Assembly (NCBI RefSeq): GCF_024345575.1 | Contig: NZ_JAGQBJ010000001.1 | Span: 62,001 to 126,000 of the forward strand | From: Cyanobium sp. Morenito 9A2 | GTDB lineage: Bacteria; Cyanobacteriota; Cyanobacteriia; PCC-6307; Cyanobiaceae | DNA length: 64,000 nt | Direction: 5' to 3' | In this document: positions 42,600 to 58,100 of the stretch, in pieces | Numbering within the stretch: the stretch's first letter is position 1 | How the letters are laid out: each line of letters starts with the position of its first letter | The notes under the pieces: generated by a model | Database searches by the model: none | Seen by the model: the letters and a program-made list of their open reading frames with translations, nothing else | Told to the model about the DNA's origin: nothing | Made by a program: the position numbers and the translations under genes

Positions 42600-42797
42600 A
42601 TGAGCGTGAATCAGGAACTCCCGGCATCCGATCCCGCAGCCCCGGCTGAGCACCCGCACAATTTCGATGTGCAGAAGGAACTGCACCAGCGCATCCGCAA
42701 TGACCCCGACTACGACGACTGGGAATACGGCACCGAACCCCTGCCCCATGAGGCCTGGGTGCCCCGCTCAGATCGGCCTTCTGCGCCTGGGTCTTAG
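42600..42797 (+). CDS. Small hydrophilic protein of unknown function
   Basis: The 65-residue protein is acidic, with Pro/Ala-rich N-terminus followed by HNFDVQKELHQRIRNDPDYDDWEYG and PLPHEAWVPRSDRP. The ordered-looking middle suggests a real protein rather than a chance frame. It has no membrane segment or cysteine. It is divergent from the beta-glucosidase gene and is the last probable gene before the gene-poor accessory region. Confidence 0.55.
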   Translation: MSVNQELPASDPAAPAEHPHNFDVQKELHQRIRNDPDYDDWEYGTEPLPHEAWVPRSDRPSAPGS

Positions 42798-43590
42798 GTG
42801 TGTCCTTCCATCAGCTTGACCCTCCAAGGCATCGTCGACCCATCGGAACAGGCTTTTTCCCGTTTGACGGCCTGGGGCTGATGGCTCCCACCCATCCAAA
42901 GGCCCTGACGAACGCCAAGAAGGTCATGGTCAAGGCCCTGCCTGCGCATTTCGTTCCCTGTACCTCAGGCATCTGCTGGAGCCCTCAGTGCGATCTGTTC
43001 CTTCAACAGCCGGCAGAGCGCTTGGACGGCGTCTCCGACTTCCGCATGGCGTCAGCACCGCTGATGGCAGCTCAGGATCTCCCGCTTGCCCTCCCCGGCT
43101 CTCCATTCGGCATGCGCCCCGGTGGCTGGATGCCAGGACAGCCGAGTCAGGGCAATTCGCAACAGAACGGGGTTATCCGGCGGTTGCCGCTTCTGCTCAG
43201 GCGATGAGGCTGGTTGTTGGCTGAGCGTGGTGGAGCGGGGGATCTACCCCAGACAGAGCCCGGCAAAGACAGCCCCTGAGCGCCGCCGCTCCTGGATTGT
43301 CATCGGTTGCGCTCAAACGAGCCGCAACGCCATCCGGGCGGATGCTCTCGGCGGCTCCTTTTTGGCCTGCGCTCTGCATCTTGGGTGATCCGATCAAGCT
43401 CCCCTCCCAGGACGGCAGGCTCCTGGTCCAGATAGCGGATCCGCTCCGTTTCGTTACTGTTCACCTAGTCCGGGAGGTTGCTTCGAGCGGACTGTTGACC
43501 CCCTCTGCTCCGAGCCTCAGGCTGTCTTTGTGCTGTTCGACGGCATCGTTGCTCTGGAGGCCCTCTCACCAACTGGGCTGATTCAACGTC
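42798..43590. other. Gene-free stretch at the start of the accessory region
   Basis: About 790 bases with only mixed-frame short ORFs and no recognisable domain, RNA or repeat. It lies between the last housekeeping-side small gene and the end of the ISAs1 remnant. In a genome otherwise packed nearly gene to gene it looks like decayed DNA. Confidence 0.55.
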
Positions 43591-44708
43591 TCACCACGTG
43601 CTTGGTTCTGGCTTTCTCGTCACTATCGTCCGTAGCGCCTTGCTGTCGAGAGTTACGGCCTGCATGCCGGCTCGGATCAACTGAAATCCAGTCAGTCGGA
43701 GCAGGTTGAGGGCTGCCGTCCGCAGCGCCGCCATCGCTCCGGCGCCGTTGCCCCGGTAGCGATGGGCGACTTCGCGCAGCTGGGTATCACGAATCCAGTG
43801 CCAATCCTCAAGGTCTCAGAAGTCTCACACCAGTTTCGGCAGGGCTTCTGGGTTGGTGCTGCTCCAGTCCTCACGGATCTGCTCCGTTGCCTCTACCGCT
43901 TCGCGGAAGCCTTCAGCTGTGACGCGGAGCGTCCAGGAGATGGCACGACCAGGACCCTCCTCGAAAGCACTTGCCTCTACAGGGATGTGGCGTTTCCCCT
44001 GGTACTGGTATCGGATCTTGCCAGGCAAGGTCTCTGGGTTCCCCTTCACGGTCAGGGGGAAGTCGGCCCTTTGTTCCTGAAGCGGTCGAATGACGGTTTC
44101 TGGGTGTGGAGCGCATCCGCCTGGATCAGCACCCCTTCGAGATCAAGCCTCCCGAGCCGTTGCCGGAGCACTGCCCGCTCGTGGTTCTCACCGGTGGCGT
44201 TGCAGCTCTGGCTGATCGCCACTCCCCAAGCGGCTGCGTAGAGCGTCATCTTGTCAATGAATGCTGAACCACCACCAGCAGTGGGTTCGATCGAACCCAG
44301 CAGTGTCTTTCCATCACCGAACGGTTGGTTCAGTTCCTCTGCACCACGAGAGATAGGGGCGATCGTCCAGTCGCGAATGGACATGCACAGGGACGCAACA
44401 TCAACCGGCATGGAGAAACAGCGGTGCGCCGAATCCGATTGGGGCCGCCGCCCTTCTAACCCAGGCGACTTGGTGAGCGCGCCGTGGTGATGGCGAGCAA
44501 ACCGCCCCAGATCCCGCAGGCTCTGGCAACCGCTCAGGATCCCGAGCACCGCCAGCAGCAGATGCCAGGCCGGCCTGCGGACATCCGGTATCGCACGCAG
44601 GTCACTGACCAGATCAAGATCAGTTGCGGCACAGGTGGTTTCGGGCAAAGGGTGGAGGCGAAACCACCGACGAATCCCGATGCTTGCAGCCCAGGCCAGA
44701 GCGCCCAT
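43591..44708 (-). pseudogene. Decayed ISAs1-family transposase
   Basis: Read leftward from 44708, the protein has the ISAs1 N-terminal pattern (LVSDLRAIPDVRRPAWHLLLAVLGILSGC then LRDLGRFARHHH), DGKTLLGSIEPTAGGGSAFI with a catalytic Asp, TGENHERAVLRQRLGRLDLEGVLIQADALHTQK with the second Asp, and stops at 44052. A one-base frameshift near 44080 moves to another frame (ADFPLTVKGNPETLPGKIRYQ, GRAISWTLRV), which has in-frame stops at 43825 and 43816 but continues as DWHWIRDTQLREVAHRYRG and the C-terminal MAALRTAALNLLRLTGFQ to a TGA at 43591. It is therefore inactive but nearly full length. Terminal inverted repeats were not identified. Confidence 0.85.
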
Positions 44709-46640
44709 GACAGACGTTCACTCAGCCCTGTGTCCCAAGCGGTTCGGCGCCAACCAGGCCCCACCGCTGCCCTCGAGCCCCGATGCCGGTAACGCCAAGC
44801 CGAAGGAGTCGCGAAGCGTTGCGCGCTGCCACGGTTGAGGCCGGGCCGGAAGAGCTGGGTGAGTTGCGTTCGTTCCCCCGTCTATCTGTACTGGCCCTTC
44901 GCCGGATAAGACGAGACCCGTGGAAGGTTGGTAGTCCTTGTGGACGGCTACAACCACCGCCACTGCTGGTCCGGGGCAATCACGTTCAAGACGCCCGAGC
45001 ATCTCAGGGCCCTGCTTTCGCAATCTGCCCATAGCGTGGCCACGGGTAGGAGAGGAAGCGGCAGAAACGCCCGCGCCGATGGAGACGATCCACCCGCTGG
45101 TGGTCCCAGCCGGAGATGGTGTGGATCAACAAGCCATCTGAAGTTCAAGAATCAACTCTGGGGGTACAGTGAATCGAAGTATGCTGAGCGGCATTTCGGG
45201 GAGGCACTTTCCCAGCGCGTCAGCGCAGCTGGGTTCAAGGCATGGAGCCGATAGGTCAGGCTGATTGTTACCGGGCAGGCGTGACCACACATCCGCCCAT
45301 ATGACCACTCACTTCCGGCAAGCTCAACAACTCTGGCCTTAGGTGTCAGATGTCAGAGAAGGCATGCGCCATCACCAAGGCCCGCTGACTCAAGTGTGAC
45401 CTGGGCAATGCTGAAGGAAGCGGCCGGAGACTTCAGGCAGATTCTCCACCGGGCGTGGGCTCAATCAAGCCCCCTCATTGTCTCGCTTTCGCCTTTCAGC
45501 TGATCATGATCGGTGGCACCCATGTGGATCAGAATGATCGTACGCTCAAAGACAATGGCTGCCGCAGCGGAGGTCCGAGGGCGTTGGTCAGCATCCTCTG
45601 GTGGTGGAGGGCTGGCGGCGCCAGATTCAGCAGGCACCGGCAACGGCTCAGAAGTCCGTTCCCTGCACCCATGAGCAGGTATCGAGCCGGGGAAGGGTCC
45701 CTCGTGGCCTGAGGCATGGTGGATCACCGGCATGACCATGACCGGGTCGAGGCCTGGGGCGCGCGAGACGGTCGTGGATGAAGGGAGGAAAGCTTCTCAT
45801 CGAGCTCATCCCATGCGATCAGCCTCGGCAGGTTGACTTGCGACGGTCGTTGATTCAACTTTCCGGCGTCAGGGGCATGACCTGCAATACAAATGTTCCA
45901 TCTCAAGTACGACAACAGGTAGACCACCCCACCCCCGCTGCCAGCGGGTAGCTTCTTTGGGCTAAGTTCAGATTTGTTTGCCCTAGCGGTCATTCAGGGG
46001 TCAAGCTGGAGGTTTGAGCGCAGGTGCCATCGTTTGAGACTGGTACAGTGAAGGCAAGCAGAAAAGCTGGATCCCGATTCGACCCCCTGACCACTGGATC
46101 AGTGGCAGGTCCTATGGATCTGCCGTCATCTTTCCCATGAGCCATGAAAACCATCCAAAAGCTAATGCCATCATTGAATGAGTGAAGGGATTTGCGCTGC
46201 TGATGACAGTCCTGTGCGAGGCACGCTTGACCAACCACTTTCAGAATGCGACGCTGACTGCGCTCAGCATGCATCACGTTTGGTTTGTGGCCGAGAGGTT
46301 GATGTTTTCCTACTGTCTTTGAACCGGGCGATCAGCCTACGAATTTGCGTTAATTGCTATGTTCATTAGAGTTGAGCAATTCCACTGTAACAGACATAGG
46401 GAAGAGTGCTCTCCTTGCGGAAGGAGATATTGAATTAAGATTCTGATCCCAGGACATTAATTGACAAACGGAGAAAGCTAGTCAAGTCGCTCCTAGGCCA
46501 ACCACATGGCGAATCGATCGAGCCCCTCTAAAGGTGGCTCAAGGGGTTTTGAGCATGCTTTCAGTGGTGACGAAAACATCGGGAAACTGAAACCTCAAGC
46601 AATGCTAAGCTGGCCAAGATCATAGCGCAGTGGAACCAAG
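44709..46640. other. 1.9-kb gene-poor region before the AT-rich operon
   Basis: Only short overlapping ORFs in many frames are present, none with a domain I recognise. GC content falls visibly from about 46,000 onward toward the level of the next operon. A fragment on the minus strand at 45724-45993 and one at 45990-46277 keep ~90-residue frames but match nothing I know. The last ~150 bases must contain the promoter and leader of the operon, including hairpin elements near 46520. Confidence 0.5.
46520..46550 (+). promoter_or_regulatory. Possible leader hairpins before the glycan operon
   Basis: GAGCC (46520-46524) can pair with GGCTC (46536-46540), and the overlapping CCCCT (46523-46527) with AGGGG (46542-46546), the latter followed by TTTT. 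The two stems exclude each other. They lie 90-120 bases before the 934-residue ORF, so they could act as a weak terminator or attenuator. Stems are short and no leader peptide is evident, so this is weak. Confidence 0.25.
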
Positions 46641-49445
46641 ATGAAGTATGCCTTCTATGTACCTAGCCTTCACCATGCATGTGGTATTGCTCGATACAGT
46701 TGCTATGCTTCAGACGCACTAGCCGAAAGGGGGCACGAGTCAAGGGTGCTCGGAACTCTTGAAGATTTGATTTCATATGCGAGCTTATCTGCCACCACAG
46801 TTTTCGTCCAGCATGAGTACGGCCTGTTCGAAGGCAACAAGGCCGTACACGAATCACCATCTACAACTGAAGTAATTAATGCACTGAAGCATGTATTAGA
46901 TCTTGACACGGCCAGCAGAGCTGCGTTCGTATTGCACACATTGGCCGTGAAAGATCATGTTTTGTCATGTGTCAACAAGCAAATTCTCACCAGTGGCATA
47001 CCTACCGCATGCCTTAACAAGCTTGGGGCTTCTATTTACTCGCTGAATCATATAGAGCATGGTTGCAGTGATTTGCGCCAGTTCGTCAGTTCAATTCGGG
47101 AATCTAAAACACAAGCAGAGATAAAGCATCAATTCAGCGTTGGAGCCTTTGGCTTATTGTCTCCAAACAAGAAAGTTGAGGAACTTATTGACATTTGTGC
47201 CGAAGCCGGTGTGCCACTCGTTGCGAGCTTGGCAACCTCTGACAAAGCCTACGCAACTGCCATAAAAAGACATGCTAAAAATCAAGGGTGTGACTTAACA
47301 TTGCACACATCTTTTGCAGACGAAAAAACAATATTGCAACGACTTGCATTGGTTGATTGCTGCCTGTGCCTGCAAGACGAGATTGAGCATTACGCTACGT
47401 CAGGATCAATTAGATTTTTGATGAATCTAGGTGTGCCGATTGTCAACTCTGCTGGTAAGCAGTTTGCAGACGTCTCTAGCCATACACTGTCAGTTGCAAA
47501 CGCCAAGGAGGCCGCAAGCACGCTGAAAACACTTCAGCTCAATCAAAAATTTTATAAAACATGCTGCGATAATGTCAAAAGTTTCATGGATTCGAATCTC
47601 ATTGGAGATGTTTATTTACAGTTCAGCGAAGTTCTGAGTAAAGATAAAGCCAAGCTCGCTCAATATAGTTTCTTGGTAACTGGCCATAAGGAGATCCAAG
47701 CCAACAAGCATCCATATGTCATAAACTCAAGCCATACTAGTGACAATTCAGGTGATAATAGTAAAACGTATGCTTTTGCGCTCAGCTCTCATAATCCATC
47801 CCTTGACAAGGTGTCTCGGGCAACCTTGATCAAGGGCGTCTGTAATCCCCTATGGAAACTAGAAGCAACCCCACTAGAAGAGGAAATTCCAAGGTGGCTA
47901 TTGTCTTCGCTGAGGGACATGCATTACTATACAGGTATAATTTTAAAATCTCATTCTGGAACAAGTCAGTTTCAAGATTTGTACTATGATATCAATGACG
48001 AACTGACCAGAAAATGTAACAGCATTGAAATAATCGGTGACATTCTCTCTGCGACAGGTGCATCTGTCAATGCCGATCATATTGAGCAAGCCATATCTCT
48101 TAAGCTTGGGATATTTAAAGAGCTTTTCAGTAAGAGGCCTCAAGCCTCTCTTTATCACAGCCTTTGTACTTCTTGGTTTATTGATGAGCACAGGCTACCT
48201 CATTATTTCAAAATCATGCATCCTGCCTTGCAGTATGGTGATTCCGATGTTTTAGGTGTTTTCGAAAATGATAATGGAAAGTTCTATTGGAATAAAATTA
48301 GCAATCTGGAGCAAGTTGCCGCTCACTTGATGACAGCTGATGGGGTGAAATGCTCTGATCTTTATGAAGACATCGGAACGACGAACAAATGGGTAGAAAG
48401 AAATGTCTTTTTTATTGAGGAGTTTCTAAGCCTAGACCCTGTCAACGTGGTTAAGTCTGTAAAACTTGCATTTTCAAAAGAAGAGCTAAGTAAAGACAAC
48501 GAAAATGAATGGGCAAGTTCAATATCTAACAATGATACGATGATCAATAGACTTATATTTGTTGTGGAAAACTACTTGCATGCGGTTCATTTTGACAACT
48601 CTAATATTCTTTTGCTGGCCTCGTATTCATCGCCACTATTGGCCATTCGTGAGTATCAAAAAGCTCAAACTAGTTTCTCGAAAATAGTTAAGTATGCGGT
48701 CAAGACCATGCCACAAGTCAAGCCGCGTCATGTTACCATTGGCGATAGCGGTCTTGGTATTGCAATTGGCAAATTAATAACAATTCTTTCTCAACAGCAT
48801 GCCAATTACCATCCAAATGAGGAAGGTATCAGCCTGGGAGAGCAGTTGGATCATGCCGTTGATTTCATCGCTGGCGATACGAGTAGCGACAACCGCTGGA
48901 CTCAGTCGACACCTGTATCATCTCTATTAAGGGCTTTCTCGTCAAGTCTTTTTGATGGCAATGAATCCAGTGGTTTCACTCAAGTTGATGAAGTTTTTTA
49001 TAGTAAGCTGATTCATCTTAGATCACTTCCAGAAGTTGTAGCCCTTGAATCACAGCCTACTAATCCGAGAAAATACAGTAGAATTAAGCAGAATTTATCA
49101 AGGCAAGGCCCTGGTTCTATGGGTTATACTTCACCCTCTCAAAACTCGAACTCTGCCAGAAGCCTGCGAAGGGAGCAGTCAGGCAATAAAGAGAGTCAAT
49201 CAAACTTTGATTCGGATCCAGATTCGATTCAAGACGATAGAACCGTCAAAAGAGTCAAGACTAGGCTGCTAAAGTTGCTTTCTAACTTTAACAACAAAAA
49301 TGGTGAGCACATGTCAAATTTTGATGAAGCATCGTATTTAGAACGATATCCCGATGTTCTCGAATCAGTAAAGCGGGGTGAGTTCCAAAGTGGATATGAT
49401 CACTATTTAAAATGTGGATTCAGGGAAAGGAGGGAAACGAAATGA
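46641..49445 (+). CDS. Large glycosyltransferase-like protein, multi-domain
   Basis: The 934-residue protein starts like a GT-B (GT4-type) glycosyltransferase: MKYAFYVPSLHHACGIARYS, then VFVQHEYGLFEG at residues ~55-65, typical of the GT4 donor-side N-domain, and FGLLSPNKKVEELIDICAEAG near 170, matching the start of the C-domain. The part from ~340 to ~850 matches nothing I recognise. After a Ser/Asn-rich linker the end holds FDEASYLERYPDVLESVKRG and a SGYDHYLKCGFRERRE tail, a short motif I recall from surface-glycan and glycosyltransferase proteins. No signal peptide is seen. Codon use is far more AT-rich than the flanks. Its stop overlaps the next start (ATGA), so the three genes form an operon. 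Confidence 0.75.
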   Translation: MKYAFYVPSLHHACGIARYSCYASDALAERGHESRVLGTLEDLISYASLSATTVFVQHEYGLFEGNKAVHESPSTTEVINALKHVLDLDTASRAAFVLHTLAVKDHVLSCVNKQILTSGIPTACLNKLGASIYSLNHIEHGCSDLRQFVSSIRESKTQAEIKHQFSVGAFGLLSPNKKVEELIDICAEAGVPLVASLATSDKAYATAIKRHAKNQGCDLTLHTSFADEKTILQRLALVDCCLCLQDEIEHYATSGSIRFLMNLGVPIVNSAGKQFADVSSHTLSVANAKEAASTLKTLQLNQKFYKTCCDNVKSFMDSNLIGDVYLQFSEVLSKDKAKLAQYSFLVTGHKEIQANKHPYVINSSHTSDNSGDNSKTYAFALSSHNPSLDKVSRATLIKGVCNPLWKLEATPLEEEIPRWLLSSLRDMHYYTGIILKSHSGTSQFQDLYYDINDELTRKCNSIEIIGDILSATGASVNADHIEQAISLKLGIFKELFSKRPQASLYHSLCTSWFIDEHRLPHYFKIMHPALQYGDSDVLGVFENDNGKFYWNKISNLEQVAAHLMTADGVKCSDLYEDIGTTNKWVERNVFFIEEFLSLDPVNVVKSVKLAFSKEELSKDNENEWASSISNNDTMINRLIFVVENYLHAVHFDNSNILLLASYSSPLLAIREYQKAQTSFSKIVKYAVKTMPQVKPRHVTIGDSGLGIAIGKLITILSQQHANYHPNEEGISLGEQLDHAVDFIAGDTSSDNRWTQSTPVSSLLRAFSSSLFDGNESSGFTQVDEVFYSKLIHLRSLPEVVALESQPTNPRKYSRIKQNLSRQGPGSMGYTSPSQNSNSARSLRREQSGNKESQSNFDSDPDSIQDDRTVKRVKTRLLKLLSNFNNKNGEHMSNFDEASYLERYPDVLESVKRGEFQSGYDHYLKCGFRERRETK

Positions 49446-50497
49446 CTACAAGAAAAAAGGTTGTACTTCTTGGTTTTTTTGGGAGAGGCAATGCTGGAGA
49501 TGAAGCTTTTCTTCATGTACAGTATCAGCTCTTTTCTAAGGATTTTGACATATGCATCGTCATTGAACAGAAGGGAGCTTATCCAGGCTTTTCAACCTGG
49601 GATCCATACAATCAGTGTGAGATCTGGAGTTTTGATGATGTCAATAGACTCTATTCTAAAGACATTGCATTTCTCCACATTGGGGGAGGCTCACTTCCTT
49701 TTGCCTATGCCGGCCATTTTATCTTATCGGCATTTGACTATGGAATACCAGTCTTAATGTCAGGCATCGATGCATCTATAAAACCAAAGTCGGCGGATGA
49801 TGATATTAAGAAGGTAATTTATTCTAGACTTGCGTTTATGTCAGTGAGAACAGATAAATCATATTCAAACCTGAGCAAGCATTCAGGGAATCTTAACATA
49901 CATCACGGTGCTGATTGGGCATTGGGGCTGTCAAGAGCCGATACGGGTATCTCAGATGTCGACATTGTTGTTACTACAAGAGGCTTTTCAGAGCCATCTA
50001 GTATTCATCAGACAAACAGATCTGACTTTGAGCATTTTCTCACTTCTAACGGACGGAGAATTACCTGGCTTCCTTTCGCCCCTGATGATAGAAGATTTCT
50101 TTTGGAAACCGGTGTGGATGATCAGGATATTCTTAATCTTTGGCATGATCCTCGTCAAGTTCTCGATGTCATTTGTAAATCTAAGCTTACAGTTAGCATA
50201 GGAAGATTGCATACTTTAATTTTTGCCTCCATGTCTAACATCCCATGCGTGGCGATTGATCCGTTCATCGTGCATGATGGCAAGCATATTCCCAATCGCA
50301 AGAACATGTTTTTCTGCAAAGAGCACGGGATTCCTTTTTATAATTCAATTCGCAACTTTATCGATGAGTTTAATCTTGAGGATATTGGCGCTAATAATCT
50401 TCCTGGTGGATTCACGCAAGGCTATCTCGATAGATTTGGCAGCATGATAGAGAGGCTTAGTTCTTATGGTCAACCCTTGGTAACCATCGATGATTGA
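49442..50497 (+). CDS. Polysaccharide pyruvyl transferase family protein
   Basis: The ~351-residue protein has KVVLLGFFGRGNAGDEAF at residues ~6-23, the Gly-rich start of the CsaB/WcaK-type polysaccharide pyruvyl transferase family, then FLHIGGGSLPFAYA near residue 80 and IGRLHTLIFASMSNIPCVAID near 255, where the Arg-x-His of the family lies. These enzymes add ketal-linked pyruvate to glycans or form related acidic modifications. ATG 49442 overlaps the upstream stop; the ORF start at 49412 lies inside the previous gene. It is AT-rich like its neighbours and paralogous to the C-terminal half of the next protein. Confidence 0.85.
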   Translation: MTTRKKVVLLGFFGRGNAGDEAFLHVQYQLFSKDFDICIVIEQKGAYPGFSTWDPYNQCEIWSFDDVNRLYSKDIAFLHIGGGSLPFAYAGHFILSAFDYGIPVLMSGIDASIKPKSADDDIKKVIYSRLAFMSVRTDKSYSNLSKHSGNLNIHHGADWALGLSRADTGISDVDIVVTTRGFSEPSSIHQTNRSDFEHFLTSNGRRITWLPFAPDDRRFLLETGVDDQDILNLWHDPRQVLDVICKSKLTVSIGRLHTLIFASMSNIPCVAIDPFIVHDGKHIPNRKNMFFCKEHGIPFYNSIRNFIDEFNLEDIGANNLPGGFTQGYLDRFGSMIERLSSYGQPLVTIDD

Positions 50498-52196
50498 TTA
50501 TACACGCTGGTCGTCTTTATTCAATAATCCTGATTGGAATTCTAGAGCAGATACGATTCTTCCATTCATACCCGATGGCAATAGCGTTATCGACATTGGT
50601 TGTGGCACTCAATACTTAAGAAGTTGCTTCCCGAGTGATAAGTACTTCGGCGTTGACATCGTCGAACGACCCAATTGTATTTTTATAGACAGTCTAGACG
50701 ATATTTTGTTCCCGCTTGACATAACATGCGGCCCTAAAACATATATATTGCTTGGAGTTTTGGAATACCTTTTGAGGCCTGTTGATCTTTTAAAGCATTT
50801 GCTTTTGTCTGGCGACCAAGTAATATTTAGCTACACGCCTATCGATTTAGTGGAAGATCTTCAAGAGAGGCAATCAAATGGATGGGCTTCTCATTTGGCA
50901 TGGGAGGAGCTTATCGCTGAGATCCCAGGTGATTGTATTCAACAATCTTTTCAGCATAATCAACAAAGGATAATCGTTGCCCAATCTCCTTGTGCTTTGA
51001 GTTCTATGGTTGGGCAGGATGCTGAGTTTGGAGCCATCTTGTCTGCAGAATCTAGCAAGCTAGATGCTGCCGCTCCTTCAAGTCATAAAGATGATTCCAT
51101 TGAGGATGGATCTACCCTGTTACGCACGTCCGGATTGACAAAAGGGCGAGAATCAATTGTCGTTACTGGCTTTTTTGGAAGAGGTAATATTGGTGACGAG
51201 GCAATGCTTCAGGTTATTTTTGAAGCATTTCACCACGAGTATAATGTTGTTATTTCAGCTGATCTTAATGGAGCACGGAGTGGATTTTGGGATTGGTACC
51301 CGTACTCTAGTTGTGAAATCATTCATCACGGTGACTTAAAGGCGCTTACCGATCCTTCCGTTTGCGGTTTTATTACTGGTGGTGGAGCCCTGCCTTTGGG
51401 ATTCGCGAGTTCTCAGAAAACTATTGCCTCTGCTTTGTCGAAGCCTACCTTCCTTGCTGGAGTAGATGATACTATTTACTTTTTAAAGGGTGATTCGTTT
51501 GATGAAAACTTTGCATCTTCTTATCTTTCGTCTTACTCCTACTTCTCTACCCGGTCAACGAGAAGTTTTGAACGAATTAAGCCCATAGCTCATAATGCAA
51601 GACTGGGATCTGACTGGGCCTGGGGGCTTAAGCCGGATGAGCGTGATATGGAACAATCAGATTATATATGTCTTGTCATTCGTGAAATGCCAAAGTCGTA
51701 TATTGATCACGTTCTGATTGACTCTTATCAAAGATTGCTCGGTTATTTGAGGGGCTTGGGCGTGCGACTTGTTCTCATGCCCTTTTGTCCAGAGGACGAG
51801 CTATTTGTGCAATCAATAAGCGCGTTCGAAGAGGTCGAGGTTTTTCGCTGTTGGTGGAATCCTCGGCTTGCGCTGCAGTTTATTTCTCTGAGTAGCGCCC
51901 TTGTCAGCGTAGGCAGGCTACATCCAATTGTTTTTGCGTCAAAATCAAACATTCCAGTCATTGCGATTGACTATGACTTTGCGCATATGGATGCCTCTTT
52001 TGAGCCTGATCCCAAAATCTTAGACTTGTGCACTGAGTTTATGATCCCGTATTATTCATCTATACCTAGCTTCCTCTCCTCTGCACATTCATTAGAGTTT
52101 CCTTTTCCAAGAGAAGACACGACTCATGTCAATCATGGCTATGATTTAAGATATCAATCCCAGTTGAGCGACATCGCTGAGATCATACGTCGCTAA
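50490..52196 (+). CDS. Fusion: SAM-methyltransferase-like domain plus pyruvyl transferase domain
   Basis: The 568-residue protein begins with a class I methyltransferase-like domain: SVIDIGCGTQYL (SAM loop, residues ~32-43), FGVDIVERP and VLEYLLRPVDLLKHLL, ending near residue 170. A ~50-residue polar linker leads to a second polysaccharide pyruvyl transferase domain with IVVTGFFGRGNIGDEAML (~223-240), TGGGALPLGFA and SVGRLHPIVFASKSNIPVIAID. This C-terminal domain closely resembles the preceding protein (shared GFFGRGNxGDEA, GGGxLP, GRLHxIxFAS). The start overlaps the preceding gene by 8 bases. The fusion suggests coupled methylation and pyruvylation of a surface glycan; the substrate is unknown. 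Confidence 0.8.
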   Translation: MIDYTRWSSLFNNPDWNSRADTILPFIPDGNSVIDIGCGTQYLRSCFPSDKYFGVDIVERPNCIFIDSLDDILFPLDITCGPKTYILLGVLEYLLRPVDLLKHLLLSGDQVIFSYTPIDLVEDLQERQSNGWASHLAWEELIAEIPGDCIQQSFQHNQQRIIVAQSPCALSSMVGQDAEFGAILSAESSKLDAAAPSSHKDDSIEDGSTLLRTSGLTKGRESIVVTGFFGRGNIGDEAMLQVIFEAFHHEYNVVISADLNGARSGFWDWYPYSSCEIIHHGDLKALTDPSVCGFITGGGALPLGFASSQKTIASALSKPTFLAGVDDTIYFLKGDSFDENFASSYLSSYSYFSTRSTRSFERIKPIAHNARLGSDWAWGLKPDERDMEQSDYICLVIREMPKSYIDHVLIDSYQRLLGYLRGLGVRLVLMPFCPEDELFVQSISAFEEVEVFRCWWNPRLALQFISLSSALVSVGRLHPIVFASKSNIPVIAIDYDFAHMDASFEPDPKILDLCTEFMIPYYSSIPSFLSSAHSLEFPFPREDTTHVNHGYDLRYQSQLSDIAEIIRR

Positions 52197-52299
52197 CTTT
52201 CCCGATTATGGGTTCGCAGAATGACCGGATCAACTCTGTGCAAATAGGGCAGCTGTCTAAACTGTGATCTGAGCTCAACAGGGGCGGAGCACTTCCCTG

Positions 52300-52818
52300 C
52301 TCTCCAGTGTCCCGATTGAGGAGCGCGTCCCAGCCAGCCATCCGCTGTCGCCTCCGAAAGGGCATTTCCCCTCCGCCTGAGCTCCTGTTTGAGCCGTTTG
52401 ATGTCACGCCGGCCCTGGGCATGGAGCCGTTCGAGCTCCTTCCGCTCTCATGCTCGCCACACTCGCCGGGCTGCGTCTACATGGTGAATACTGGCTTCTC
52501 GTTGGCATTCAGGGACGCCTGCCGCCATCGATCCTCCTGCTCGGGCGAGAGACCTTGCTCGCGGCAGTTGGCGCTGAGTTCGCCGGCTTTCAACCCAGTG
52601 GTTTCCGGCGCCACCGTGACCGTGTCGGTGGCTCCCCAGCCCTCAGGATCCTTCTCGGAGGCCTGCACCACCTCTGCCTGCAACCGCCAGGGCTTTCTCG
52701 AGTTTTAGAGGGTGAAAACGGGGATGCCCAGCTCTGCTGAAATCGGGGGCATGCTTGGCCTGTGGGGCGAGATCATCCGCCCCGCAACAGCTTTGACAGC
52801 CTCGCTGTAACGCCGCAT
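52300..52818 (-). pseudogene. Decayed IS3-type transposase OrfA
   Basis: On the minus strand from ATG 52818 the frame reads MRRYSEAVKA then SAELGIPVFTL, an in-frame TAA at 52705-52707, then NSRKPWRLQAEVVQASEKDP, GELSANCREQGLSPEQEDRW and RQASLNANEKP, followed by a TAG at 52477. Another frame continues ERKELERLHAQGRRDIKRLKQEL. This is the HTH plus coiled-coil layout of IS3-family OrfA transposases, split by a stop and a frameshift. The catalytic OrfB is not seen, so this is a fragment. It lies just beyond the AT-rich operon. Confidence 0.75.
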
Positions 52819-53267
52819 GGATCTGGTCCATCAAGCCCCCTGGTGAAACGTTGCCAGGGATGGAGAGGCGCCATCTTTCCTGGCAGAGGGTGGCACAGCA
52901 TCCTTGGCCGGAAACGCCCCCGCAGGAGCGGTTGTTGAGGGCGGCGGTGTCGACAGCCTGAGGGTCACCTTTAGAACTCCTGGCTTTTTGGTCATTCATG
53001 ACGCTGAAATGCCAGTTGCTTTGTTACGTCTTGGCCGGTCTCAATATGCGGCACGTTCCTGACGCACGTGGCCCACCACTGCTGCAAGGTCTTGTGTGAA
53101 GTCAGTTCGTTTTCCTGAAGGTGGAGGGTTGGATTTGTACGTTTTCCATGAATCGAGAACGACCGGATTCAGATGATGATCAGGTTTCCGAGGGAAACGT
53201 GTGCGGCTCAGCGGTCCCAGGACTGCTGGTTTTGTGACTAGCTGCACGCGCCAACCCAGCCACCCAC
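52819..53267. other. Gene-poor end of the accessory region
   Basis: About 450 bases between the OrfA remnant start and the isomerase-like gene show no convincing gene. Base composition is intermediate. It may hold the upstream part of the same IS copy and vestiges of others, but no inverted repeat pair was found. Confidence 0.5.
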
Positions 53268-54287: not shown

Positions 54288-54404
54288 AGTTTCTAGGGTT
54301 CCGGTTGCGAATTGGTTGCCTTGGCCGCCCCTTCGCCACGTCTGGTCCGAGAGAAACACGCCGGGTTCGCCCGGTGGCACGGAGGGATAAAAGCCCGGGA
54401 GACC
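54288..54404 (+). promoter_or_regulatory. Guanidine-I (ykkC class) riboswitch
   Basis: The leader of the guanidine operon shows the core of the ykkC guanidine-I aptamer in order: TCTAGGGTTCCGG at 54292-54304, CTGGTCCGAGAGA at 54342-54354 with ACACG after it, a variable GC-rich hairpin CCGGGTTCGCCCGG (54361-54374), and CACGGAGGGATAAAAGCCCG ending GGAGA at ~54378-54402. These blocks are hallmarks of the class that binds free guanidinium and turns expression on. It ends ~28 bases before the gdmH start. I do not see a separate terminator hairpin, so the expression platform may act on translation or by pairing that I cannot fold by eye. Confidence 0.93.
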
Positions 54405-54431
54405 GCCTCGCCCCCATCCGTGAACCCGGTC

Positions 54432-55622
54432 ATGACAGAGATTTCAGGCCCCGAAGGGGCCTTTGAGCGCCCCCGTCTGAGCCAGGGCGCCGAAGCGCTC
54501 GAAAAGGAAGCCCGCCTGCCGCTCACGGGCTGGCAGCAGGAGGTGGATCAGGGCCTGCGCTACGGCCTGGAGGCGGCCGAGAGCATCGTCGATCGGCGCA
54601 TCTCCACCTTTTCGCGCGGTGAACTGCCCCATTACGCGGGCATCAACACCTTCATGAAGGCGCCCTACATCGAGGACGTCCACCGGGTCGGCGAGTTCGA
54701 CGTGGCGATCGTCGGCGTGCCCCACGACTGCGGCACCACCTACCGCCCCGGCACGCGCTTCGGGCCCCAGGGCATCCGCCGCATCTCCGCCCTTTACACC
54801 CCCTACAACTACGAGATGGGGGTCGACCTGCGGGAGTCGATCAAGCTCTGCGATGTCGGCGATATCTTCACCATCCCCGCCAACAACGAAAAGTCCTTCG
54901 ATCAGATCTCCAAGGGAGTCGCCCACGTCTTCGCCAGTGGCGCCTTTCCGATCATCCTCGGCGGCGACCACTCGATCGGCTTCCCCACCGTGCGCGGGGT
55001 CTGCCGCCACCTGGGCGACAAGAAGGTGGGCATCATCCATTTCGATCGTCACGTCGATACCCAGGAGATCGACCTCGACGAGCGCATGCACACCTGCCCC
55101 TGGTTCCATGCCACCAACATGGCCAACGCCCCGGCCAAGAACCTGGTGCAGCTGGGCATCGGTGGCTGGCAGGTGCCCCGGGAGGGGGTGAAGGTCTGCC
55201 GGGAGCGGGGCACCAACGTGCTCACCGTCACCGACATCTGCGACATGGGCCTCGAGGCGGCCGCGAAGTTCGCGATCGAGCGCGCCACCGACGGCACCGA
55301 CTGCGTCTGGATCTCCTTCGACATCGACTGCATCGACGCCGGCTTCGTACCCGGCACCGGCTGGCCCGAGCCCGGCGGCCTGCTGCCGCGCGAAGCGCTC
55401 AAGCTACTGGAGCTGATCGTGCGCAACGTGCCCGTCTGCGGCATTGAGGTGGTGGAGGTCTCCCCTCCCTACGACGTCAGCGACATGACCTCGCTGATGG
55501 CCACCCGCGTGATCTGCGATGTGATGGCCCATCTGGTGGTGAGCGGCCAGCTGCCCCGCAAGGAGAAGCCCGCCTGGCTGCATGAGACCTGCAACATGCA
55601 GGTCGATCAGAAGTGGAGATGA
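54432..55622 (+). CDS. gdmH: Ni-dependent guanidine hydrolase (GdmH-like ureohydrolase)
   Basis: The 396-residue ureohydrolase-fold enzyme should hydrolyse guanidine to urea and ammonia. It has the metal ligands of the arginase/agmatinase superfamily: GGDH (His180), FDRHVD (Asp205, His207, Asp209) and SFDIDCID (Asp297, Asp299), followed by FVPGTGWPEPGGL, where Trp311 stands at a position usually small in agmatinases. An N-terminal ~70-residue extension (HYAGINTFMKAPY) is longer than in agmatinases and matches the size of Synechocystis Sll1077, the known Ni-guanidine hydrolase. The riboswitch in front and HypA/HypB-like genes behind support the call; an older label would be agmatinase. ATG 54432 is the start. 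Confidence 0.9.
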   Translation: MTEISGPEGAFERPRLSQGAEALEKEARLPLTGWQQEVDQGLRYGLEAAESIVDRRISTFSRGELPHYAGINTFMKAPYIEDVHRVGEFDVAIVGVPHDCGTTYRPGTRFGPQGIRRISALYTPYNYEMGVDLRESIKLCDVGDIFTIPANNEKSFDQISKGVAHVFASGAFPIILGGDHSIGFPTVRGVCRHLGDKKVGIIHFDRHVDTQEIDLDERMHTCPWFHATNMANAPAKNLVQLGIGGWQVPREGVKVCRERGTNVLTVTDICDMGLEAAAKFAIERATDGTDCVWISFDIDCIDAGFVPGTGWPEPGGLLPREALKLLELIVRNVPVCGIEVVEVSPPYDVSDMTSLMATRVICDVMAHLVVSGQLPRKEKPAWLHETCNMQVDQKWR

Positions 55623-55625
55623 GCC

Positions 55626-56009
55626 ATGCACGAAGTCGACATGACCAAGTGCCTGCTGCTCTCCCTCAACGAGTGGAAAGCCCAGCACCAGCCCAACGAG
55701 CCTGAAGTGAGCGTGGTGCACCTGGAGGTGGGCACCTTCACCTGCGTCGAACCCGATGCCTTGGTGTTCACCTTTGGGGCGGCGGTGCAGGGGAGCTGGC
55801 TGGCTGGCAGCGAGCTGCGCATCGAAACCGTGCCCCTGCGCGCCCGTTGTGTGCGCTGCGAGTCGATCTACATCCCCGAGCAAGAGAACGCCTACCGCTC
55901 CCCCTGCTGCGATCACCCGATGGAGGAGATCGTCTCGGGGCGTGAATTGCGCATCCGCTCCATTGACTACGTCTTCAGCAATCAAGCCCTCCCTGTTCTC
56001 TCGCCCTGA
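55626..56009 (+). CDS. HypA-like nickel chaperone of the guanidine hydrolase system
   Basis: The 127-residue protein begins MHEVDMTKCL, with the HypA Ni-binding His2, and ends with HypA-like RELRIRSID. Its zinc site shows a normal first CVRC pair, but the second pair reads SPCCDHP, where CPxC is usual, so one Cys appears shifted. HypA normally brings Ni to hydrogenase; here no hydrogenase is near, and the gene follows gdmH by 3 bases, as sll1078 does after sll1077 in Synechocystis. It should load Ni into GdmH together with the next gene. Confidence 0.88.
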   Translation: MHEVDMTKCLLLSLNEWKAQHQPNEPEVSVVHLEVGTFTCVEPDALVFTFGAAVQGSWLAGSELRIETVPLRARCVRCESIYIPEQENAYRSPCCDHPMEEIVSGRELRIRSIDYVFSNQALPVLSP

Positions 56010-56013
56010 TCCC

Positions 56014-56757
56014 ATGCATAGGCCCCTGGAAGACACACTCGGCATCAACCTGCTGGCCGCCAACCAGCACCGGGCCGAGCACAACCGCGAGCACTTCGAC
56101 GCCTGGCGCCTGCTCTGCATCAACGTGATGAGCAGCCCCGGCGCCGGTAAGACCTCGCTGCTGGAGCGCACGATCACCGCCCTGGCCCCGCGCCTGGAGA
56201 TGGCCGTGCTCGAAGGCGACATGACCACCCAGCTGGATGCCCAGCGCTTGGAGGCCGTCGGCGTGCCCGTAGTGCCGATCACCACCGGCCGCGCCTGCCA
56301 CCTGGATGCCTCGATGGTGAGCGGCGGCCTCAAGCTGCTGCAGCAGCGCCTCGATCCAGCCGCGTTGGATCTGCTCTGGGTGGAGAACGTCGGCAATCTG
56401 GTGTGTCCGGCCGAGTTCGAGGTGGGCGAGCACCTCAAGGTGGCGCTGCTCAGCGTCACCGAGGGCGACGACAAGCCGCTCAAGTACCCGGTGATGTTCC
56501 GGGAGGCGGACTGCGTGCTGATCACCAAGATCGACCTGCTTCCCTACCTGCCGGTGCAGGTGGAGCGGTTCGTGGAGCACGTGCAGCAGGTGAACCCGCG
56601 GGCCCGGGTGTTCCTGCTTTCGGCCAGCAGCGGCGAAGGCCTGGGCGCCTGGCACCAGTGGCTGCTGGAGCAGGTGGCCGAACGGCAGCTCGCCAGCGAC
56701 TCCGGTCCCGAGCCCACCACCAATGTCCAGCCCTTCCCCGCCCTGGTGTCCCGATGA
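56014..56757 (+). CDS. HypB-like nickel GTPase of the guanidine hydrolase system
   Basis: The 247-residue G3E GTPase has NVMSSPGAGKTSLLERT (P-loop, residues ~38-52), VLEGDMTTQLDAQR, ITTGRACHLDASMV (metal-binding Cys-His of HypB), LLWVENVGNLVCPAEFEVGEH and LITKIDLLPYL. The N-terminal His-rich or CxxCGC metal tail of many HypB is absent. It works with HypA to insert Ni using GTP. ATG 56014 starts 4 bases after hypA; the stop overlaps the glutamine synthetase homologue (ATGA). Confidence 0.9.
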   Translation: MHRPLEDTLGINLLAANQHRAEHNREHFDAWRLLCINVMSSPGAGKTSLLERTITALAPRLEMAVLEGDMTTQLDAQRLEAVGVPVVPITTGRACHLDASMVSGGLKLLQQRLDPAALDLLWVENVGNLVCPAEFEVGEHLKVALLSVTEGDDKPLKYPVMFREADCVLITKIDLLPYLPVQVERFVEHVQQVNPRARVFLLSASSGEGLGAWHQWLLEQVAERQLASDSGPEPTTNVQPFPALVSR

Positions 56758-58100
56758 GTCATTCCAGCTCCGATCTCAAGGCCGAGCTCTCGGCCAAGGG
56801 CGTGCGCTACGCCCTCGCCTCCTTCGTGGATCTGCACGGCGTCAGCAAGGCCAAGGCCGTGCCGTTGGACCACCTGGGCCAGATGCTCGGCGGCTCCGAG
56901 CTGTTCACCGGCGCCGCCCTCGATGGCGTTCCCCAGGAGGTGAGCGACGACGAGGTCGCCGCCGTGCCCGACCCCGCCAGCCTCACGGTGCTGCCCTGGA
57001 AAAAAGATGTGGCCTGGCTGGCCAGCGACCTGCATCTTGGCGGCACCCCGTTCGAGGCCTGCAGTCGCAACATCCTCAACCGTGTTCGCGCCCAGGGCGC
57101 CGCCATGGGGTATCGCTTCAACCTCGGGATCGAAACCGAGTTCTTCGTACTGCGCCAGGGCGCCGATGGCCAGATCGCTCCCTACAGCGATCGCGATGTG
57201 CTCGACAAGCCCGCCTACGACGTGGTCGGTCTGCTCGACAACCTCGGCTGGCTCGATGAGCTGGTGAGCGCCATGAACGATCTCGGCTGGGGTGTCTACT
57301 CCTTCGACCACGAGGACGGCCCCGGCCAGTTCGAGATCGACTTCAACTACGCCGATGTGCTCACCATGGCCGACCGGCTCACCTTCTTCCGGCTGATGGC
57401 CAAGGAGATCGTGCGCCCCCATGGGCTGGTGGCCTCGTTCATGCCCAAGCCGTTCAGCGACCGCACGGGCAGCGGCGCCCACTACAACATGTCCCTGGCC
57501 GACCTGAGCAGCGGCGAGAACCTGTTCGTCTGCCCCTCGGGCGCCCCAGCCAGCGTCAGTGATCTGGCCAGGCAGTTCATTGCCGGGGTGCTGCGCCATG
57601 CCCCGGCGATCTGCGCCGTGATCGCCCCCACGGTCAACAGCTACAAGCGGCTGGTGGCCCAGGGCTCGATGAGCGGCTTCACCTGGGCGCCGGTGTTCAT
57701 CTGCTACGGCAACAACAACCGCACCAACATGCTGCGCATACCCTCCCCTGGAGGGCGGGTGGAATGCCGCGCCGCCGACAGCGCCGCCAACCCCTACCTG
57801 GGGGGAGCGATGATCCTGGCGGCGGGCCTCGAGGGCATTCGCGAAGGGCTGGATCCAGGCCCCGCCAACCTGGTCAACGCCTACACCTTGAGCCCTGAGC
57901 AGCTCGCTGAGCGCGGCATCAACCTGCTGCCGCGCACCCTCGGCGAAGCGATTGAGGCGTTTGCGGCCGATCCGCTCTCCAGAAGCGTGTTCGGTGATGC
58001 CATGTTCGAGTCGTTTGTGACTTACAAACGTGAGGAATGGGAGTCGTACCACGGCGCCGTTTCCGAATGGGAACGCAAGCGCTATCTCGAGTTTTTCTAA
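56754..58100 (+). CDS. GlnT-type glutamine synthetase homologue
   Basis: The ~448-residue protein has the glutamine synthetase fold with GIETEFFVLR (catalytic Glu), EDGPGQFEIDFNYADVL (Glu pair), GSGAHYNMSL (substrate His) and NNRTNMLRIPSPGGRVECRAADSAANPYL (Arg that holds glutamate and ATP). Its start (LKAELSAKGVRYALASFVDLHGVSKAKAVP) matches the GlnT/gamma-glutamyl ligase-like branch rather than the main GS of cyanobacteria. It may simply capture ammonia from GdmH, or join glutamate to guanidine or an amine, as gamma-glutamylmethylamide synthetases do. It lies inside the riboswitch operon, overlapping hypB, with the transporter 55 bases after. Confidence 0.86.
   Translation: MSHSSSDLKAELSAKGVRYALASFVDLHGVSKAKAVPLDHLGQMLGGSELFTGAALDGVPQEVSDDEVAAVPDPASLTVLPWKKDVAWLASDLHLGGTPFEACSRNILNRVRAQGAAMGYRFNLGIETEFFVLRQGADGQIAPYSDRDVLDKPAYDVVGLLDNLGWLDELVSAMNDLGWGVYSFDHEDGPGQFEIDFNYADVLTMADRLTFFRLMAKEIVRPHGLVASFMPKPFSDRTGSGAHYNMSLADLSSGENLFVCPSGAPASVSDLARQFIAGVLRHAPAICAVIAPTVNSYKRLVAQGSMSGFTWAPVFICYGNNNRTNMLRIPSPGGRVECRAADSAANPYLGGAMILAAGLEGIREGLDPGPANLVNAYTLSPEQLAERGINLLPRTLGEAIEAFAADPLSRSVFGDAMFESFVTYKREEWESYHGAVSEWERKRYLEFF

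Follow-up and report, generated by a model that had tools for sequence, protein, structure and literature searches.

Three overlapping, AT-rich genes of Cyanobium sp. Morenito 9A2 (ORF1, ORF2 and ORF3; Table 1) are probably an imported, translationally coupled module that decorates or caps an exported polysaccharide – a capsule, an exopolysaccharide or an O-chain. They lie within a stretch of 64,000 nucleotides that was analyzed at full length, here called the window. The observations behind this reading are the composition of the genes, their overlaps, the domains and motif residues of the encoded proteins, their absence in relatives, and the location of homologues in capsule-export loci.

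Table 1. Features in and around the three-gene cassette, in window positions.
Feature	Positions	Strand	Description
Segment without counterpart at either flank in congener G001	42771–53252		10.5 kb; flanks on different G001 contigs
Decayed DDE transposase fragment	44052–44708	-	DDE_Tnp_1_assoc, E=4e-4, below Pfam cutoff; probably ISAs1-like
AT-rich segment	46131–52280		42.7% GC; likelihood changepoints at 46131 and 52280
ORF1	46641–49445	+	934 aa; GT4/GT-B-like glycosyltransferase domain at ~4–335; ~340–880 without family; C-terminal FDxxxYLxxxPDV-type motif
ORF2	49442–50497	+	351 aa (361 aa from first ATG, 49412); polysaccharide ketal-pyruvyltransferase family
ORF3	50490–52196	+	568 aa; class I methyltransferase-like domain (~1–170) and ketal-pyruvyltransferase domain (~220–545)
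Decayed IS3-type orfA remnant	52491–52896	-	74–75% DNA identity to two further sites of the host genome

Composition and gene structure

A preliminary description of this region had reported three overlapping genes of low GC and deviant codon usage. The ORF coordinates, GC, GC3 and codon distance all confirmed this: GC is 41–43% in the genes compared with 68% in the chromosome overall, and codon distance is 0.47 compared with 0.126±0.021. By gene, GC is 42, 41 and 43% and GC3 is 0.40, 0.37 and 0.39 for ORF1, ORF2 and ORF3, respectively. The chromosome overall has a GC3 of 0.83, and the long host-like ORFs of the window (n=36) have a GC of 0.683±0.025 and a GC3 of 0.832±0.039. Codon-usage distances of the three genes are between 0.465 and 0.475, and the highest value for the host is 0.170; the host baseline is a leave-one-out mean over the 36 neighbouring host-like ORFs. 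The composition anomaly is far beyond chance. On the left flank of the cassette, GC declines by gradation, with no sharp break. The cassette is in the interior of contig C1 (108641–114196) with host DNA on either side, in an assembly that is 99.8% complete and has 0.04% contamination.

All three ORFs are intact, at 2.8, 1.1 and 1.7 kb, and they look translationally coupled. The Met of ORF2 at 49442 has a strong RBS (AAAGGAGGGAAACGAAATG), its ATGA overlaps the ORF1 stop by 4 bp, and the homologues of ORF2 start at the corresponding Met; for these reasons 49442 is a likelier start than 49412. ORF2 and ORF3 overlap by 8 bp. No promoter-like site was found on the + strand in the stretch just upstream of ORF1, and exporter genes are lacking within the cassette.

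Pyruvyltransferase and methyltransferase-like domains

The Pfam family PF04230 matches ORF2 (E=1e-14, 55.6 bits) and the C-terminal part of ORF3 (E=5e-12, 46.8 bits), both above the gathering cutoff of 25.3 bits. The conserved motifs of glycan pyruvyltransferases are NxGD, RxxxS/T and a His (PMC10629545), and in CsaB the residues R148, H308 and K328 matter for PEP binding (PMC10435577). ORF2 has NxGD, RxxxS and RLH motifs (N27, R146 and H267, numbered from the ATG at 49412), the motif residues of ORF3 are N233, R355 and H478, and the motifs of both proteins are kept across their homologues. The best NCBIfam match of both is the CsaB equivalog (TIGR03609), a SCWP ketal-pyruvyltransferase, but the scores of 71.6 bits for ORF2 and 76.9 bits for ORF3 are far under its cutoff of 213.1 bits, and a CsaB-like role in SLH anchoring has no support for either protein.

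By its sequence, ORF3 appears to be a methyltransferase/pyruvyltransferase (MTase–PST) fusion, not a plain pyruvyl transferase. Its N-terminus scores 15.3 bits against Methyltransf_23, under the cutoff of 27, and its full-length homologues in Zoogloea and Zavarzinia aquatilis score 38.1 and 30.6 bits, above that cutoff. These Zoogloea and Zavarzinia homologues are 30–31% identical to ORF3, and the DIGCG SAM-site motif of ORF3 is mostly conserved among the homologues. The earlier assignment of two proteins to the pyruvyl transferase family thus holds for ORF2 and ORF3 through PF04230, but is incomplete for ORF3, which also has a methyltransferase-like domain.

The PST part of ORF3 is GT-B-like in a predicted model. 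The top Foldseek matches of this model are GT-B glycosyltransferases and UDP-GlcNAc epimerases; Pvg1p (5AX7) and WbbZ (6X1L) are absent among the 50 matches listed, and the model fits GT-B folds generally. A search of solved structures by sequence gave no convincing homologue, and the ORF2 profile matched none of them, WbbZ included.

The N-terminus of ORF1

ORF1 has no family match in Pfam or NCBIfam, and no GT domain was found there. The GT4 label is moderately supported, and is confined to the first ~335 residues. This N-terminal domain shares 33–34% identity over 335 aa with a 1036-aa protein of a Zavarzinia capsule locus, which has no recognisable counterpart to the C-terminal ~600 aa of ORF1. 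It also aligns (hhalign E=9.4e-5, probability 59%) with two GT-like neighbours of PST genes, from a planctomycete and Zoogloea, one of them with GT4 Pfam matches. The description of ORF1 as GT4-like would apply only to the first ~335 residues; the protein has no Pfam match and the remainder has no assignment. A structure model of ORF1 was unusable (pLDDT 34). The C-terminus (window 49310–49442) ends in a FDEASYLERYPDV...YDHYLKCGFRE motif, presumably like the short tail of other multidomain glycan proteins.

Capsule loci of relatives and export in the host

Homologues of the trio occur elsewhere. In Zavarzinia aquatilis (locus L009), homologues of ORF2, ORF3 and the N-terminal domain of ORF1 are within ~16 kb of a capsule-export locus, next to genes for an ABC-2 permease, an ABC ATPase, a KpsE-family protein (TIGR01010 E=8.5e-73, under the family cutoff) and a Poly_export protein. 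This locus differs from the cassette in having these export genes of its own, in that the three homologues are not adjacent to one another, in the dissimilar C-terminus of the ORF1 homologue, and in an ORF3 identity of only 30%. A second Zavarzinia (L008) has homologues of the same three genes. Among other alphaproteobacteria, one genome (G429) has all three, on separate short contigs that make the mapping less complete, and another (G771) has ORF2- and ORF3-type genes. In Zoogloea dura, the MTase–PST fusion is found between export genes (ABC and Poly_export) and a GT-like gene, and downstream are genes for two Capsule_synth proteins. Two of the capsule loci with ORF2 and ORF3 relatives (L009, 620–2302, and L057, 17639–19333) also encode another PST-family protein, whose N-terminal extension gave no Pfam match.

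Because its relatives occur together in capsule-export loci, the cassette looks like a lower-GC donor's module for modifying a capsule or exopolysaccharide. The surface polysaccharide modification proposed from the first reading of the DNA is supported by this context and by the PST motifs. The host genome encodes three Poly_export exporters, one of them beside a native PST gene of host-like GC3 (0.78), so an export route exists in the host, and the three are candidate exporters for the cassette. A separate host locus (L067; contig C10, 82–11370), with a GC3 of ~0.5, encodes a GSCFA protein, a GH130, a GT-like protein and a Poly_export protein, and is possibly another acquired glycan island.

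Distribution and origin

Acquisition by horizontal transfer, also proposed in the preliminary description, is well supported by the foreign composition, by the lack of ORF2-like genes in the other cyanobacteria sampled and in a congener, by the proteobacterial nearest relatives, and by the lack of a counterpart to the segment next to either flank in that congener. ORF2-like proteins (E≤1e-10) were found in none of the 385 other cyanobacterial genomes sampled, and the C-terminal region of ORF1 is absent from the same 385. The first 59 relatives searched gave a single weak match (E=2e-4). The host genome is 3.1 Mb, and the relatives searched were mostly 1.2–3.9 Mb genomes of one family; its size, composition and gene content point to a GC-rich picocyanobacterium. 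The close relatives do not all carry the cassette in this place, as ORF2-like genes are absent from the congener (G001). Elsewhere, ORF2-like proteins were found in 3 of 385 alphaproteobacterial genomes, and within the Zoogloea class in no genome other than the starting one (1 of 369, 35% identity); the genome sets searched for ORF2 are samples, not whole collections.

The nearest relatives of the cassette proteins are proteobacterial, with one planctomycete PST relative. ORF2 is 46% identical over 337 residues to a 405-aa protein of Zavarzinia aquatilis, and with a best identity of 46–47% no close donor was found. In a phylogenetic tree, ORF2 groups with the Zavarzinia-type ORF2 proteins (96/100) and the host's own PST proteins fall outside the whole set (99/97). 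The PST domain of ORF3 is on a long branch, and its position is not settled. The donor looks to have been a lower-GC bacterium, and the cassette looks yet to take on the composition of its host.

Two vehicles of transfer were considered and rejected. None of the three proteins gave a tblastn match in 72,556 plasmids. A set of 50,697 phage records held nothing that matched ORF2 or ORF3, there was no PHROG match, and the PST matches in IMG/VR were only 26–29% identical.

Transposase remnants and flanks

Transposase fragments and non-coding sequence surround the cassette. The remnant on the right is IS3-type: a fuller copy of its orfA elsewhere in the host genome (locus L036) matches HTH_Tnp_1 (E=1.4e-11) and has an rve domain nearby, which is the IS3-type arrangement, and the copy in the window has an internal stop. 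On the left, the transposase region is broken across frames, and a likely C-terminal piece is found further along in another frame, without a Pfam match. Decayed transposases had been described on both sides of the cassette. That stands for the right side, but the left fragment is sub-threshold and 2 kb from ORF1, so the cassette is flanked on both sides only loosely. A composite transposon was rejected, since the remnants on the two sides differ in IS type and no repeat >12 bp was found in common between the flanks.

The comparison with a congener was made with one genome, G001, which aligns with the window on two contigs: one matches from 53252 to the right (~94% identical), the other from 42771 to the left. 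With its flanks split between contigs in this way, the 10.5-kb block is at a rearrangement junction, and no clean empty site was found in G001. The same right-flank gene in G001 (locus L021; C3, 12000–15600) adjoins a different AT-rich stretch, with 47–53% GC and unrelated small genes. On this evidence from two genomes, the spot may be an insertion or rearrangement hotspot.

Proposed function and rival explanations

The enzymatic activity, the acceptor, the order of steps, the export route and the ecological effect are inferred. Through the GT4-like domain at its N-terminus, ORF1 probably adds a sugar. ORF2 and ORF3 probably take pyruvate from PEP and attach it to sugar hydroxyls in ketal form, and the methyltransferase domain of ORF3 probably acts on the same glycan, or on its terminus, by methylating it. 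The resulting glycan would carry negatively charged pyruvate along with methyl groups, either as an end cap or as decoration, and this would alter the cell-surface epitope. It is conceivable, if rather doubtful, that the MTase–PST fusion is an undescribed dual-function chain terminator that caps ABC-exported capsules with methyl and pyruvate, and that it is transferred together with a dedicated GT and another pyruvyltransferase as a module that switches serotype. Fusions of the ORF3 type are conserved among Zavarzinia, Zoogloea and this cyanobacterium. A narrow search of the literature on methyltransferase–pyruvyltransferase fusions in capsule loci found nothing relevant.

The three proteins might instead be glycosyltransferases of GT-B-like fold or sugar-building enzymes, extending or building a side chain without pyruvate. 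PST proteins share that fold, the structural matches of ORF3 are of this kind, the Pfam scores of ORF2 and ORF3 are modest, and WbmX was initially taken for a GT (PMC10629545). This is nevertheless quite unlikely given the PEP-site motifs (NxGD, RxxxS/T and H) that are present in both ORF2 and ORF3 and conserved in their homologues.

Two further explanations concern the DNA rather than the enzymes. The genes may be inactive debris – a block that was imported, has been left without its partners (exporter and polymerase), is unexpressed, and is drifting in an IS-rich rearrangement scar – as might be expected from the transposase fragments and non-coding sequence all around, the flanks that map to different places in the congener, the un-ameliorated genes, and the lack of a + strand promoter-like site just upstream of ORF1. 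The three intact ORFs, the strong RBS of ORF2, the coupled overlaps, the conserved motif residues and the candidate exporters of the host make this unlikely. Very improbable is an assembly artefact or contamination, in which an AT-rich block of another organism was misjoined to the host contig at a repeated IS sequence. The wholly foreign composition, the IS-like repeats at the right edge and the flanks that are not adjacent in the congener would fit such a misjoin, but the block is interior to its contig with host DNA on both sides, the GC of the left flank falls gradually with no sharp break, and the completeness and contamination values of the assembly also argue against it.

Parallels to known glycan loci

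The nearest described parallel to an imported polysaccharide-modifying module of this kind is the IS-flanked wbbY-wbbZ locus of Klebsiella pneumoniae O1. That locus has transposable elements on both sides and provides the terminal pyruvate of an O chain exported by an ABC transporter, and a functional copy has been found in a phage genome (PMC10629545). Like the cassette, it is small, surrounded by transposable elements, and encodes a large glycosyltransferase and a ketal-pyruvyltransferase; it is unlinked to the main polysaccharide cluster. It differs from the cassette in its divergent transcription, in the two GT modules of WbbY, and in that no second PST or methyltransferase fusion is described. 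The features of a wbbYZ-like mobile glycan cassette are all found here – GT and pyruvyltransferase genes, transposon debris, patchy distribution and foreign composition – with the GT assignment of ORF1 as the weak element.

In Anabaena/Nostoc, a polysaccharide pyruvyl transferase gene of the alr3057-alr3068 surface-glycan cluster is among those mutated in phage-resistant strains (PMC12507012). This cluster resembles the cassette as a cyanobacterial surface-glycan locus with such a gene; it may be neither homologous to the cassette nor acquired, and it bears only on the importance of such genes for phage infection. By analogy with this cluster and with wbbY-wbbZ, an effect of the cassette on phage recognition is plausible; the effect on grazers that was raised in the preliminary description is conjectural. 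ORF1, ORF2 and ORF3 had no PADLOC match to a known phage-defence system.

If the cassette is functional, a set of capsule-modifying genes that this analysis met only in rare proteobacteria, apart from one planctomycete PST relative, has entered a picocyanobacterium, and the charge and epitope of the cell surface have probably changed. As laterally acquired surface-glycan genes go, the set is a good example but not an exceptional one, and aside from the MTase–PST fusion, its unusual element, it is a typical genomic island of the glycan type. The conserved fusion offers a tractable and apparently uncharacterised enzyme architecture.

Right-flank genes

To the right of the cassette, window positions 54312–58100 encode an Arginase-family hydrolase, followed by HypA, HypB and a type III glutamine synthetase. 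This gene order presumably resembles that of nickel-dependent guanidine hydrolase (GdmH) loci.
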